In this document: positions 7,166 through 56,317 of the stretch, piece by piece | Numbering within the stretch: position 1 is the stretch's first letter | Layout of the letters: each line of letters starts with the position of its first letter | From: Bacteroidaceae bacterium | GTDB lineage: Bacteria > Bacteroidota > Bacteroidia > Bacteroidales > Bacteroidaceae | Length of the DNA: 56,753 nt | Direction of reading: 5' to 3' | Assembly (NCBI GenBank): GCA_024688885.1 | Contig: JAILDV010000013.1 | Location: 1 to 56,753, forward strand | The notes under the pieces: generated by a model | The model's input: the letters and a program-made list of their open reading frames with translations, nothing else | Told to the model about the DNA's origin: nothing | Databases searched by the model: none | Made by a program: the position numbers and the translations under genes

Positions 7166-7189
7166 TTTTTGTGCTTCCTGTGCTCCATT

Positions 7190-7258
7190 AAGTGTTCCCC
7201 ACAAACGAGTGTAAGTGTTCCTCACAAACGAACGTAAGTCTTGCCCACAAACGAGTTG
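7190..7258 (+). repeat. 3 x 23-bp tandem repeat
   Basis: Three units begin AAGTGTTCCCCACAAACGAG (7190), AAGTGTTCCTCACAAACGAA (7213) and AAGTCTTGCCCACAAACGAG (7236), exactly 23 bp apart. The reverse complement (CTCGTTTGTG...) loosely resembles the 23-bp units at 53734-53825. Confidence 0.85.
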
Positions 7259-7386
7259 CAAACATTGAAATATTTCAAAGATTACCAGCAATCTTTGCAA
7301 AAGTGCAAGGATTTCATTTTTTCTTGCACTAATTTGGTCACCCCCTATTTTGTGTCGTAACTCTGCATCGGATTCAGAAACTGAAA

Positions 7387-7503
7387 GTGAAAAGTGAAAG
7401 ATGCGATTAAGCGAGTGCAGAAGTCAAACTTGTTTGAACTATGCCGAGCGTGAGCATCTTCGGCGAAGCCAACAGTGAAAAGTGAAAAATCTAAGTTACC
7501 TTG
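7387..7503 (+). repeat. 117-bp dispersed element, copy 1
   Basis: It differs at only 2 of 117 positions from the minus-strand sequence of 41377-41261. It begins GTGAAAAGTGAAAG and ends AGTGAAAAGTGAAAAATC then TAAGTTACCTTG, so its two ends are direct repeats of each other. The core contains CAAACTTGTTTG and a GCATCTTCGGCGAAGCC palindromic segment. No open frame is present. Confidence 0.9.
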
Positions 7504-7634
7504 CCACGAGTAAGACACCAGCACAACAAACGTCGATAACTCCGAGTAAAGCGATAACTTCGATAACTTCAATAACTTCAAAAAAACTCTCAATTCTCAA
7601 TTATCAATTATCAATTCTCAATTATCACACACGA

Positions 7635-7796
7635 GGTTAAAAAGGTTAAAAGGTTAAATGGTTAAATTTTTGTTTTTATTTTGTATTTTGTTCGGCTTTC
7701 ACTAACGTTGGCTTCGCCGAAGTTACTCACGCTCGACAATAAAAATAAAAAAACTTTTCTTTCATTTTGTATTGTACTCACTTAATCGTAACTTTG
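7635..7796 (+). repeat. ~160-bp promoter-bearing element, copy 1
   Basis: The order is GGTTAAA heptamers, ATTTTTGTTTTT, ATTTTGTATT, a TTGGCTTCGCCGAA block, ACAATAAAAATAAAA, and a second ATTTTGTATTGT that ends in a TAACTTTG box. The same order occurs on the minus strand at 42045-41888. In both places the right end is the promoter of the adjacent gene. Confidence 0.85.
7766..7796 (+). promoter_or_regulatory. Promoter of the esterase-LamG gene
   Basis: TTTG at 7766-7769 and TAACTTTG at 7789-7796 are separated by 19 nt, an excellent Bacteroidetes promoter. The predicted start near 7803 leaves an ~80-nt leader before the ATG at 7886 and rules out the upstream in-frame ATG at 7811. The promoter is the right end of a dispersed element. 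Confidence 0.8.
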
Positions 7797-7885
7797 CAAT
7801 ATAAAACCTGATGATAGGAAGATGGGAAGGGCTTGCAAGAGATGCAAAAGCTTTTTCGGAATACACTTATAACAATCAGACAAAC

Positions 7886-9349
7886 ATGAAACAAAACCAA
7901 ATCTACATGATGCTTGTCGCCTTTTTTTTGCTGTACACGTCTGTGGCACAAGCGCAGTATCAACAAGTGAATGACATTCCCTACACGGAATCGACAGATG
8001 CTTACGCTCAGGAGCGCTGTAAACTGGATGTGTATTACCCCACGAACCGAAAGGATGCTCCTGTCGTGGTGTGGTTCCACGGGGGTGGCATCGAAGGTGG
8101 CAATAAGCATATTGACCAGGAACTCAAGAACAGCGGACTTGTGGTGGTGGCTCCAAATTACCGACTCCTGCCGAAAGCGAACATTGACCAGTGTCTTGAC
8201 GATGCTGCCGCTGCTGTGGCATGGACTTTCAAGAACATTGAGAAATATGGCGGGAGCCGACGCAAGATTTTTGTGGCAGGACATTCTGCTGGCGGCTATC
8301 TGCTCGACCTCATAGGACTGGATAAGAAATGGCTCGCCAAATATGGTGTCGATGCTGACAGCTTGGCGGCGCTCGTGCCCTTCAGCGGTCAATGCATCAC
8401 TCATTACAATATCCGTAAGCAGCAGGGTATTGGTCCGCTGCAACCAACCATCGACCAGTATGCTCCACTCACTTATGTGCGTGCTGATGCCCCTCCTATG
8501 GTCATCATCTCAGGCGACAGGGAACTGGAACTCTACGGACGCTATGAGGAGCAGGCTTATTTCTGGCGCATGCTGAAGCTGGTTGGTCATCCTGATGTCA
8601 CGCTCTATGAGATGCAAGGCTACGACCATGGTGCCATGCCTCAACCTGCCTATAAGATATTGAAAGACCATATCCGTCGCTTGACAGCCAAGATGGTCTC
8701 TGCCTTACCTAAAGCAACAATCATAACGGAACAGAAGGCTGAATACCGATTTGAATGGCAACCTTCTTTTTGTAAACGTGATGCCAAGATTGATGAGTCG
8801 AATCCATCCATCCTCCACCTCGGAAACAATAATGGCTATTATGATTTGACGGCGGAGACGGGTGCGCTCATCAAGAACCTGAAGGATTTCTCTGTGTCCG
8901 TACATTTCAAGGTGAGTTCGGATAATGCGCTCGACGGATACGGGCACTTCCTCTTCGCTTTCTCCCAACTGGCTGAGAACAGTGCCCAAGAGGGTCCTTA
9001 TATGGCTATGCGCCTGAATGAGCAGCGATTCGAAACTTCTACAGGCGGATATGAACATGAGGAAATCATCATGCAGGGAGGAAAGCCTAAACGTGACACA
9101 TGGATACACGTTCTTTATCGACAGCAGGTACACAAGGGCGAACTCTTCCTTGACGGAAAACTGATAGGGAGAAACGAGCACATGCCCATCCTCTCAGAGA
9201 TTTTCAAGGAGGCACCAGCCAATTGCTGGATTGGACGTGCTCCTTTCCGAGGCGACAAGTTCCTGACGCAAACTGATGTGGCAGATTTCCGTCTCTTCGA
9301 TTATGCCGTCAGCAATCAAGAAATGCAAAGGCTGAAAAAGAGGGATTAG
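7886..9349 (+). CDS. Secreted alpha/beta-hydrolase (esterase) with C-terminal LamG-like domain
   Basis: The 487-residue protein starts with a signal peptide (MKQNQIYMMLVAFFLLYTSVA, cleavage probably after AQA at residue 23). An alpha/beta-hydrolase domain of the BD-FAE/carboxylesterase type covers ~35-270. It has oxyanion motif HGGG (65-68), nucleophile elbow GHSAG (Ser134), a likely acid Asp211 in ISGDRE, and His248 in GYDHG. Residues ~300-485 resemble a concanavalin/LamG fold (FSVSVHFKV, WIHVLYRQ, LFLDGKLIG, DFRLFDYAV). It probably removes acyl groups from a glycan or similar substrate outside the cytoplasm; the substrate is unknown. I chose the second ATG because it begins the signal peptide and the first lies too close to the transcription start. 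Confidence 0.8.
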   Translation: MKQNQIYMMLVAFFLLYTSVAQAQYQQVNDIPYTESTDAYAQERCKLDVYYPTNRKDAPVVVWFHGGGIEGGNKHIDQELKNSGLVVVAPNYRLLPKANIDQCLDDAAAAVAWTFKNIEKYGGSRRKIFVAGHSAGGYLLDLIGLDKKWLAKYGVDADSLAALVPFSGQCITHYNIRKQQGIGPLQPTIDQYAPLTYVRADAPPMVIISGDRELELYGRYEEQAYFWRMLKLVGHPDVTLYEMQGYDHGAMPQPAYKILKDHIRRLTAKMVSALPKATIITEQKAEYRFEWQPSFCKRDAKIDESNPSILHLGNNNGYYDLTAETGALIKNLKDFSVSVHFKVSSDNALDGYGHFLFAFSQLAENSAQEGPYMAMRLNEQRFETSTGGYEHEEIIMQGGKPKRDTWIHVLYRQQVHKGELFLDGKLIGRNEHMPILSEIFKEAPANCWIGRAPFRGDKFLTQTDVADFRLFDYAVSNQEMQRLKKRD

Positions 9350-41208: not shown

Positions 41209-41260
41209 TATTTCCCCAACTTTTATCAGCAAAAATCTGCTTTTTCCCCACTTCTAAAAG

Positions 41261-41377
41261 CAAGGTTACTTAGATTTTTCACTTTTCACTGTTGGCTTCG
41301 CCGAAGATGCTCACGCTCGGCATAGTTCAAACAAGTTTGACTTCTGCACTCGCTCAATCGCATCTTTCACTTTTCAC
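41261..41377 (-). repeat. 117-bp dispersed element, copy 2
   Basis: On the minus strand it matches 7387-7503 at 115 of 117 positions; the differences are an A/G in GCGATT(A/G)AGCG and a T/A in TAAGT(T/A)ACC. It begins 3 nt after the cdd stop codon and reaches to 53 nt upstream of the rplU -33 box. Confidence 0.92.
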
Positions 41378-41380
41378 TCT

Positions 41381-41863
41381 TCACTTCCTCCCAGGGAGTT
41401 CAAAACTCAAAGGGAGCAAATCCTTGATGCTGCTGATGACGTAAACACCATCTGTGCCATAGAGAAGCACTTCGATGTTGCCGCCAGCCCGTTGTTCAGC
41501 TTCAAGCAGCACCTGACGGCAAGCTCCGCAAGGAGAGATGGGGCGTTGCATGAACTGCCCATTTGTATCTCGTGCCGCTATGCAAATGCGGCGAATCGGT
41601 TGGTCGGGATAACGGGAATTGGCATAAAACACCGCTGTACGTTCAGCACAAAGTCCGGAAGGGTAGGCGGCATTCTCCTGATTGCTGCCGCTTACGATGG
41701 TGCCATCAGCCAATGCGACGGCAGCCCCCACAGAGAAAAGAGAGTAGGGTGCATAGCTGCGGTAAGTGGCGCGTCGTGCCTCATCCAGCAGTTCGACCTC
41801 CTCGGGCGTGAGTTCCCCCTCCTGTTTAACCAGGACATGAAGATGCAAATCCAGTTCTTTCAT
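41381..41863 (-). CDS. cdd: Cytidine deaminase
   Basis: This is a small tetrameric-type deaminase of the pyrimidine salvage pathway. Of 160 residues, the zinc site is visible as CAERTAVFYA (Cys ligand and catalytic Glu) and PCGACRQVL (two Cys ligands), the three-cysteine type. Substrate residues lie in SVGAAVALADG and GSNQENAAYPSGLCAER. The stop codon TGA (41381-41383) lies in the GTGAAGAGTGAAAAG tract bordering the 117-bp dispersed element. Its promoter is the end of the ~160-bp element upstream, so the gene is bracketed by two repeat families. Confidence 0.95.
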   Translation of the reverse strand: MKELDLHLHVLVKQEGELTPEEVELLDEARRATYRSYAPYSLFSVGAAVALADGTIVSGSNQENAAYPSGLCAERTAVFYANSRYPDQPIRRICIAARDTNGQFMQRPISPCGACRQVLLEAEQRAGGNIEVLLYGTDGVYVISSIKDLLPLSFELPGRK

Positions 41864-41887
41864 ACGTCTTACTTTTATTTGTCATGA

Positions 41888-41918
41888 CAAAGTTAGTGAA
41901 AGCCGAACACAATACAAA
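41888..41918 (-). promoter_or_regulatory. cdd promoter
   Basis: On the minus strand TTTG (41918-41915) and TAACTTTG (41895-41888) are 19 nt apart, 24 nt before the ATG. The promoter is the right end of the ~160-bp dispersed element. Confidence 0.8.
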
Positions 41919-42045
41919 ATAAAAAGGCTTTTATTTTTATTGTTGAGGCGCATCCTAAGTTCGGCGAAGCCAATGTACGATTAAGCGAGGACAATACAAA
42001 ATGAAAACAAAAATTTAACCATTTAACCATTTAACCTTTTTAACC
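41888..42045 (-). repeat. ~160-bp promoter-bearing element, copy 2
   Basis: On the minus strand the order is GGTTAAA heptamers, ATTTTTGTTTTC, ATTTTGTATTGT, CTCGCTTAATCGTACATTGG, CTTCGCCGAA, ACAATAAAAATAAAA, ATTTTGTATTGT, TTCGGCTTTCACTAACTTTG. It has the same modular layout as 7635-7796. The two promoter variants occupy swapped positions compared with that copy. Confidence 0.85.
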
Positions 42046-53825: not shown

Positions 53826-53902
53826 TCAAAGTTGCAAAAAATATTTTCAAAGTTTGAAAATTATTTTTGAAACTTGCAAAATTTTTTTTGAAACTTTGAA
53901 AA
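53823..53902. repeat. 4 x 21-bp array of 17-bp quasi-palindromes upstream of the HU-like gene
   Basis: TTTTCAAAGTTGCAAAA (53823), TTTTCAAAGTTTGAAAA (53844), TTTTGAAACTTGCAAAA (53865) and TTTTGAAACTTTGAAAA (53886) are spaced exactly 21 bp, two helical turns. Units 2 and 4 are near-perfect palindromes. The array ends 37 bp upstream of the -7 box of the next gene. Confidence 0.88.
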
Positions 53903-53939
53903 TATTATAGAAACGTAAGGCTAATTCAAATGAATATGC

Positions 53940-55954: not shown

Positions 55955-56098
55955 CAACTATCAACTTAATAATTTAATTTTCGCCCATCGCGTAGCGCTT
56001 TGCTCGCAAAGAACCTTAACTTTCTTGTAGTTATCGAAGTTATAGAAGTTATTGCTTCGCTCGAAGTGAGCGACGTTTGTTATGCTGACAATTGACAG

Positions 56099-56168
56099 TT
56101 TAGGGTTTAGAGTTTAGGGTTTAGAGTTTAGGGTTTAGAGTTTAGGGTTTAGAGTTTAGGGTTTAGAG
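56099..56168 (+). repeat. 5 x 14-bp tandem repeat (TTTAGGGTTTAGAG)
   Basis: Five perfect copies of TTTAGGGTTTAGAG fill 70 bp. The half unit TTTAGGG happens to equal the plant telomere repeat. Confidence 0.95.
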
Positions 56169-56317
56169 ATTCAATTCCTCATTCCTCATTCCTAATTCCT
56201 CATTCCTAATTCTTTCTTTTTAAGGTATCGTCGTTTACTTCGTTAACTCCATTAACTTCATCACTTCCGAACCTTTAGCTCGACGAAGTCAAAGTTGAGT
56301 TAATAAGTTTTATGTTT

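Follow-up and report, generated by a model that had tools for sequence, protein, structure and literature searches.

BrickBuilt, a MITE of Porphyromonas gingivalis, is described in the excerpted text of PMC4596501 as an intergenic repeat that carries promoters, one of them near the start of argS, and that contains tandem repeats. The unit that we describe here resembles BrickBuilt in being a promoter-carrying intergenic repeat of a Bacteroidales species. However, BrickBuilt has, according to the same excerpt, a 23-nt minisatellite, a leader, a tail and terminal inverted repeats, whereas the present unit is without these and sits in a -7 box. REPs are palindromes of 20-40 bp with a GTAG or CGTC tag, as given in the part of PMC3733652 available to us. 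As in REP/RAYT systems, the palindromes studied here are short, dispersed, and single or arrayed, and one class of them (class C, see below) lies mainly 3' of genes. On the other hand, the GTAG/CGTC tag was not found, the units measure about 74-97 bp with the feet GGTAC, GTTAC or GATAC, the outer arms are of the GGTAC/GTACC kind, and a search for an associated RAYT found none. Thus, at least one defining feature of MITEs, and at least one of REPs, is absent from the unit.

Two other systems deserve comparison. In the invertible promoters of Bacteroides (PMC8748976, in excerpt), as in the present case, a DNA rearrangement decides which promoter faces the gene. Those promoters flip, on a segment between inverted repeats; here only a loop lies between the arms, and the promoter sits inside one arm and would be gained or displaced as a unit, a contrast that is our own reading. 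The plain housekeeping promoter of Bacteroidota has the consensus TTTG / TAnnTTTG (-33/-7) in the excerpted portion of PMC7366714. The right arm of our unit carries both of these boxes with a 19-nt gap, but the plain promoter, as far as that portion describes it, is without the mirror arm, the tandem units and the unit insertion seen here. Among the open-licence papers searched, no title or abstract describing this unit was found. In this family of gut bacteria a hairpin cassette lies before many everyday genes; at one of them a comparison with relatives indicates that it replaced the old promoter, which suggests that promoters in these bacteria can be swapped by moving DNA.

Two arrays in the window

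The window is the whole stretch of DNA analyzed here, 56,753 nucleotides of a Bacteroidaceae bacterium (contig JAILDV010000013.1 of assembly GCA_024688885.1). The initial annotation had described a dispersed ~160-bp element at 7635-7796 (plus) and 42045-41888 (minus) that carries the promoters of an esterase gene and of cdd. The reported order of motifs is present at both stretches, and an inverted-repeat search of the window recovered the shared sequence independently: 7635-7694 pairs with 41986-42045 (60 nt, 92%), which is the common beginning, and two further pairs, 7750-7797 with 41969-42016 (81%) and 7673-7710 with 41888-41925 (95%), correspond to what had been described as a swap of two promoter variants. 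The order is indeed reversed, B then A at locus 1 and A then B at locus 2, but the variants are really two subtypes of one unit in tandem. Nor is there a single ~160-bp element. The shared sequence is a composite of a GGTTAAA repeat, which is separate, and 1.5 copies of a repeating unit of 83-86 bp (~85 bp), so that each locus reads, in order, GGTTAAA repeat, promoter lacking a left arm, and one full unit:

7635..7676, plus strand: GGTTAAA repeat block of locus 1, a separate dispersed repeat adjoining the array
7678..7710, plus strand: upstream promoter of locus 1, subtype B, without a left arm (TTTG 7680-7683, broken -7 box TAACGTTG 7703-7710)
7707..7792, plus strand: unit of locus 1, subtype A, GTTGGCTTCGCCGAAGTTAC...CTTAATCGTAAC (model match 7704-7798, E 5.5e-24, not independent, as the unit is among the sequences used to build the model)
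7720..7751, plus strand: left arm of the locus 1 unit, mirror promoter (mirrored -7 box TAACTTCG)
7766..7796, plus strand: right arm of the locus 1 unit, predicted esterase promoter TTTG-N19-TAACTTTG (TTTG 7766-7769, TAACTTTG 7789-7796)
7886..9349, plus strand: esterase / alpha-beta hydrolase gene (BD-FAE, COesterase), with the start at 7886 in place of 7811
42004..42045, minus strand: GGTTAAA repeat block of locus 2 (from the sequence and the inverted-repeat search)
41970..42002, minus strand: upstream promoter of locus 2, subtype A, without a left arm (TTTG 42000-41997, broken box TACATTGG 41977-41970)
41892..41974, minus strand: unit of locus 2, subtype B, ATTGGCTTCGCCGAACTTAGG...GGCTTTCACTAAC (model match 41886-41977, E 2.4e-12, not independent for the same reason)
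41888..41918, minus strand: predicted cdd promoter TTTG-N19-TAACTTTG (TTTG 41918-41915, TAACTTTG 41895-41888)
41381..41863, minus strand: cdd, cytidine deaminase
7395..7476, minus strand: class C relative with the same outer arms and no promoter
41288..41369, plus strand: class C copy just 3' of cdd

The terminal TTTG-N19-box had been correctly placed at both loci, and in both window units TTTG lies ~19 nt upstream of TAnnTTTG; by this consensus both are predicted to be promoters. Both spoiled -7 boxes were found as well, although the one at locus 2, annotated near 41975-41968, lies two bases away. The esterase start that is kept in a relative is the ATG at 7886, not 7811. We rejected the GGTTAAA block as a part of the element: it is a repeat family of its own, with at least 13 matches in the genome that contains the window (G000), and of the 12 whose surroundings were inspected, the two in the window are the only ones next to a promoter unit.

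The unit itself is an imperfect inverted repeat, in which a mirror promoter with a broken -7 box is followed by a loop and then by a promoter of the Bacteroidota type, TTTG-N19-TAMCTTTG. An alignment of copies gives a length of about 85-95 bp (CGTTGGCTTCGCCGAAGGTACTCACGTTCGACAATAAAAATGAAAAAAnnnnTTTTTCATTTTGTATTGTGCTCACTTAATCGTACCTTTGCA). The activity of the right-arm promoter is predicted from the consensus. The left arm is the mirror image of the right one with the box broken: the mirrored -7 box, counted with a crude pattern, ends in TTTG in 1 of 93 aligned units and in TTCG in 65, the rest having other letters or being out of register. There are two main subtypes, differing in the spacer and the left arm, namely subtype A (CTTAATCG, with GGTACTCACG) and subtype B (GGCTTTCACT, with CTTAGGATGCGCC). 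A third subtype (D core), neither A nor B, is found at trpS of G000.

Copies of the unit and their gene context

A search of the G000 genome (3.03 Mb, 68 contigs) with positions 7630-7810 gave at least 58 matches at E<=10. Of 125 candidates 40 were scored, and among these the strongest match beyond the window has an E-value of 9.8e-35 (82% over 150 bp). The similarity of the two stretches is beyond chance. With a covariance model at least 103 matches were obtained at E<=1 (150 of 2346 candidates scored), 73 of them at E<=1e-4. These searches scored part of the candidates (16 per genome in the family survey described below), so that copy numbers are lower bounds and a non-match does not mean absence. 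A simple text rule was used to classify 72 of the 73 matches, the partial match C14:37649-37707 being omitted and the 30 weaker matches lying outside the count, and it yielded 41 promoter-class and 31 class C copies.

The promoter-class copies do not lie mostly far from genes. In 35 of the 41, which include tandem neighbours of one locus, the next gene according to a crude longest-frame caller is on the same strand, at a median distance of 39 bp and within 130 bp in 32 of the 35. Class C copies, in contrast, are followed by a same-strand gene in 7 of 31 cases and face an opposite-strand gene in 24 (Fisher p 1.3e-7 for the difference in orientation, with tandem copies not independent). The genes behind promoter-class copies include alaS, panC, trmD, prfB, metK, trpS, an ABC-F ATPase and a rhamnulokinase-like gene, the last two assignments scoring below NCBIfam cut-offs. 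At C8:118699-118877, where there are two copies, the final 10 nt of the proximal unit contain the start of a match to the cobalamin riboswitch, which agrees with the predicted direction of the promoter and roughly with its predicted start. Class C is an 82-bp hairpin with the outer arms of the unit, a different core and no promoter. Its 31 copies, at 7395-7476 (minus), 41288-41369 (plus) and 29 other places in the genome, mainly 3' of genes, are nearly identical, and it looks like a recently spread REP-like relative of the promoter unit.

The unit is widespread. Within the genus the DNA query matches 39 of 45 genomes and the model, at E<=1e-10, 37 of 45; at E<=1e-8 the matches within the family extend to 72 genomes (of 249) and, counting the window's genus, to 14 genera (of 25). 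Units were fetched and aligned from five of the other genera. Spread by viruses was considered and discarded, as two scans of viral contigs with exact patterns, which miss variants, gave 0 matches each.

Covariation of the arms

The two arms change together. In a set of 40 units (38 of the genus and two of L065, a near relative), whose alignment took no account of structure, 92.7% of cells are paired versus 88.0 +- 0.5 after shuffling, and there are 42 two-sided changes versus 15.4 +- 2.8, a number reached by 0 of 500 shuffles; when the partner is slid, pairing falls to 51.7% or less. A second set, aligned with our own script and equally blind to structure, comprised 41 units from 13 genomes of five other genera, these being 41 of the 53 units found, with the 12 left out mostly weak or partial. 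Here 94.7% of cells are paired versus 83.1 +- 0.7, with 113 two-sided changes versus 41.0 +- 4.4 (0 of 500 shuffles) and at most 55.6% pairing with the partner slid. Further pair types do not exceed the shuffles in either set (17 versus 15.1 in the genus, reached by 57 of 500; 24 versus 24.6 in the other genera, reached by 377 of 500). When all 53 units are aligned to the model there are 157 two-sided changes versus 51.4, in an alignment that leans towards structure. Covariation is also seen in a small hairpin at the left junction (33 two-sided changes versus 14.9 +- 2.5).

In the set from other genera, one pair varies freely (CG 17, AU 11, GC 11), ~50 of 942 cells are unpaired, and only 8 cells represent one-sided changes that keep the pair (G-U). 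Template switching is documented, in the excerpted text of PMC7202029, to make quasi-palindromes more perfect, and few G-U cells would be expected if one arm were copied onto the other as in such quasi-palindromes. Their scarcity therefore fits arm-to-arm copying better than selection on RNA, although this is suggestive only.

Arrays and their change at orthologous genes

Units occur singly or in tandem, with up to at least four full units in the relative G030. Of 87 -7 boxes closest to a gene, 84 are intact, whereas of 42 boxes followed by a further unit 37 are broken, mostly reading TAMC followed by GTTG (Fisher p 2.5e-23 for loci of G000, its genus and a near relative, with automatic classification of the boxes, orthologous loci that are not independent, and broken letters that are also the left end of the next unit). 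These counts derive from 297 matches reduced to 177 non-redundant ones, from which we removed 19 whose model end lay below 88 and 29, largely class C, in which no box was recognised. The upstream boxes of the window itself are outside the 42, that of cdd being among the 29 and that of locus 1 absent from the printed list. Two of the three proximal boxes scored as broken belong to the rhaB array, the printed sequence of which continues into more units. In other genera the upstream -7 box is often TTTG (at least 24 of 43 rows, by eye); thus, the rule that upstream boxes are broken belongs to the window's genus.

Orthologous arrays of G000, G029 and G030 differ in the number of units and in the live subtype. 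Firstly, the rhaB array ends A-broken, B-live in G000 and A-broken, B-broken, A-live in G029. Secondly, panC has A-broken, B'-live in G000, B'-broken, A-live in G029, and A, B'-live in G030, where the upstream box is still TTTG. Thirdly, cdd has A-broken, B-live in G000 and A-broken, B-broken, A-live in G030. Finally, trmD has subtype A as its last unit in G000, where G029 and G030 have a different one. Other units have stayed alike: those of alaS, prfB and C2:69589 are 100% identical between G000 and G029, those of alaS, prfB and metK lie within 98-100%, and the units of these last three genes were inherited in place. All these genomes are drafts, in which repeats may have collapsed; one array has N inside (L303), and in some of the drafts arrays lie near a contig start, as at L047, so draft assemblies may under-count units.

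Among 69 units of three genomes, the unit nearest to that of G000 cdd is the one before an ABC transporter gene of G000 (96%), versus 85% for the ortholog in G030. The esterase unit is nearest to the cdd unit of G030 (95%) and is also 94% similar to the unit before a frame of G029 that we name methylase-like by reading, with some letters of the leader in common; gene exchange behind one promoter may have taken place here. The esterase gene is without a match in G029 and G030, so that locus 1 has no ortholog there to compare.

A filled and an empty site at trpS

A comparison of relatives for empty sites, in which orthologs of four genes were looked up in four relatives (G029, G030, G036 and G006; 17 places), yielded one clean filled/empty pair, at trpS. 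In each of the four relatives the promoter is a plain one that ends in TACC followed by TTTGCA, and no unit or half-unit is seen. In G000 a 74-bp unit lies exactly at the junction of TACC and TTTG; its core (GGAAAAAC...GTTTTTC) is that of the third subtype. The flanks of G000 and G029 match, the left one over 43 identical bp and the right one at 47 of 50, and further upstream the two differ; G030, G036 and G006 have left flanks unlike that of G000. As the unit ends in TACC, the box TACCTTTG is rebuilt, and the old box becomes TACCGTTG. The 74 bp start with GTTGGC and end with CGTACC, and terminal inverted repeats were not seen by eye in this one insert. TACC flanks it on both sides, and is also part of the -7 box and paired inside the unit.

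The other three genes are less clear. The C36 gene has plain promoters with different left flanks in G029, G030 and G006, and in G036 the sequence of an upstream gene stands at this position. For cdd, plain promoters with different left flanks were found in G029 and G036 and none was seen in G006. The differing left flanks make both genes weaker cases than trpS. At the dTDP-glucose dehydratase gene a unit is present in G036 and in one of the two G030 copies, only the right arm in G029, and none in G006. The proposed insertion is thus carried by one clean case, trpS, among the four genes looked up.

Possible mechanisms

The initial annotation had suggested a mobile or recombining promoter cassette, a view supported by the copies across the genome, the switching between sister species and the filled/empty pair at trpS. 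Our best reading, which we regard as moderately probable, is that a cassette inserts into -7 boxes and that local and ectopic copying act in addition. An inverted-repeat promoter cassette of 74-90 bp would insert into an existing -7 box, between TAMC and TTTG. The old box would be broken by the cassette's left end (GTTGGC...), and the right end, consisting of the -33 TTTG, the spacer and TAMC, would form a box again together with the old TTTG, such that the gene would keep a promoter, albeit a new one. Once in place, units would be gained and lost in tandem and copied between promoters, by which the live subtype would switch. The arms would stay complementary by one being rewritten from the other at the DNA level, through template switching at the quasi-palindrome. 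We infer from the single trpS case that insertion may be the usual way in.

A more far-reaching version is that the units are miniature mobile elements that target the core promoter: an internal GKTA would match TAMC, insertion would kill the old promoter and rebuild a new one in a self-masking manner, and, round after round, fossil promoters would accumulate in front of housekeeping genes in many genera of the family. We put this forward tentatively, as possible but not probable. The left-flank TAMC, the internal GKTA and the right-end TAMC agree in 35 of 48 readable units (out of 81) versus 9.5 +- 2.5 after shuffling, which is what a target-matching guide would give, although copying between repeats would give it too. 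A concrete prediction of the cassette reading is that TAMC-to-TTTG junctions go with a matching internal GKTA. If this reading is true, the core promoters of housekeeping genes (alaS, metK, prfB, trmD, trpS) turn over in a large group of gut bacteria by cassette insertion and not only by point mutation, the arrays are a readable record of past promoters, and the system is an example of how mobile DNA may hit promoters and yet leave the genes unsilenced.

Alternatively, there may be no true insertion, with slippage, template switching and gene conversion between promoters that were already similar giving rise to the arrays where they stand, and a template switch at a few shared bases to the trpS unit. 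In 42 units of other genera, the upstream promoter is closer to the proximal promoter of its own locus (0.729) than to the proximal promoters found elsewhere in that genome (0.691 +- 0.009; 0 of 2000 permutations reach it, with segments L285, L293, L297 and L311 out of register), which indicates that local duplication or copying is also at work. The four units at the cobalamin riboswitch locus of G030, which are 94-98% alike, point the same way, as does the perfecting of quasi-palindromes by template switching in the excerpt of PMC7202029. However, at trpS the four relatives offer nothing local to duplicate, and units at unrelated genes are 94-96% alike. We therefore consider an origin entirely in place to be rather unlikely.

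Within the preferred reading of cassette insertion, the movement itself could be a single-strand transposition of the HUH type (IS200/IS605-like), with insertion 3' of TAMC, no terminal inverted repeats, and the internal GKTA as a guide pairing with the left target TAMC and the TAMC of the right cleavage site; we presume these GKTA letters to be comparable to IS608-type guides. The agreement of the three motifs, the covarying hairpin at the left junction and an unpaired G that is conserved in the main stem are consistent with it. Against it, no matching transposase was found in a search for the Y1_Tnp family. Although 27 of 45 genomes of the genus have a Y1_Tnp match at E<=0.01, and 14 of 45 one over the cut-off, the carriers G036 and G043 (98% complete drafts) have none at E<=0.01, and the only match of G029 is below the cut-off, in a 215-aa frame that is similar to one in G000 and appears to be a cytidylate kinase. 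At nine loci with Y1 matches the unit model gave nothing below E 0.08. Overall, this sub-case seems doubtful.

A RAYT as the driver was examined and rejected. Both Y1_Tnp matches of G000 are below the cut-off; the 388-aa Y1_Tnp-like gene lies at a locus without a unit, no unit being detected at E<=1 in the locus of the better match, and across the genus the presence of Y1_Tnp does not follow that of the unit. The 388-aa protein (L234:1174-2340, G000:C49:58456) matches Y1_Tnp weakly and carries an HLH motif; no units lie in its neighbourhood.

It is also conceivable that the structure is selected, with the promoter regulated, for instance by supercoiling, through the hairpin or cruciform or through a protein bound to the inverted repeat. 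The two promoter boxes are indeed located in arms that pair, and this pairing has been retained both in the window's genus and in five further genera. Nevertheless, the paired letters change freely and the loop length is variable among units, unlike in a fixed operator, and locus 2 folds strongly as DNA (z -4.75) but locus 1 does so weakly (z -1.0), which makes this explanation distinctly improbable. Still further down stands an RNA leader or attenuator, in which transcripts from the upstream promoter would carry the hairpin: the frequent TTTG in upstream boxes of other genera would allow it, but the broken upstream boxes in this genus and the few G-U cells speak against it, and we give it very little credence. 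That these are ordinary promoters alike by chance or common constraint is hardly tenable, for although all share the -33/-7 consensus, the likeness also spans the spacer, the loop and the left arm, both over the 150 bp of the best genome match and between unrelated genes.

Other repeats in the window

The window contains several further repeats. The two class C copies of the window are part of a 119-nt inverted pair, 7386-7504 and 41260-41378 (98% identical), which joins class C to CACTTTTCACT-type repeats, so that several intergenic repeats are nested in one another there. At 7189-7256 there is a TAAGTGTTCCCCACAAACGAGT-like repeat in three copies with a 23-bp spacing, and similar letters occur near C8:118699; the 23-bp period recalls the 23-nt repeat of BrickBuilt. 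A tandem repeat of the TTTAGGGTTTAGAG type, with five copies 14 bp apart, lies at 56078-56171, and an AT-rich inverted repeat of 33 nt with a 1-nt gap at 53840-53906.
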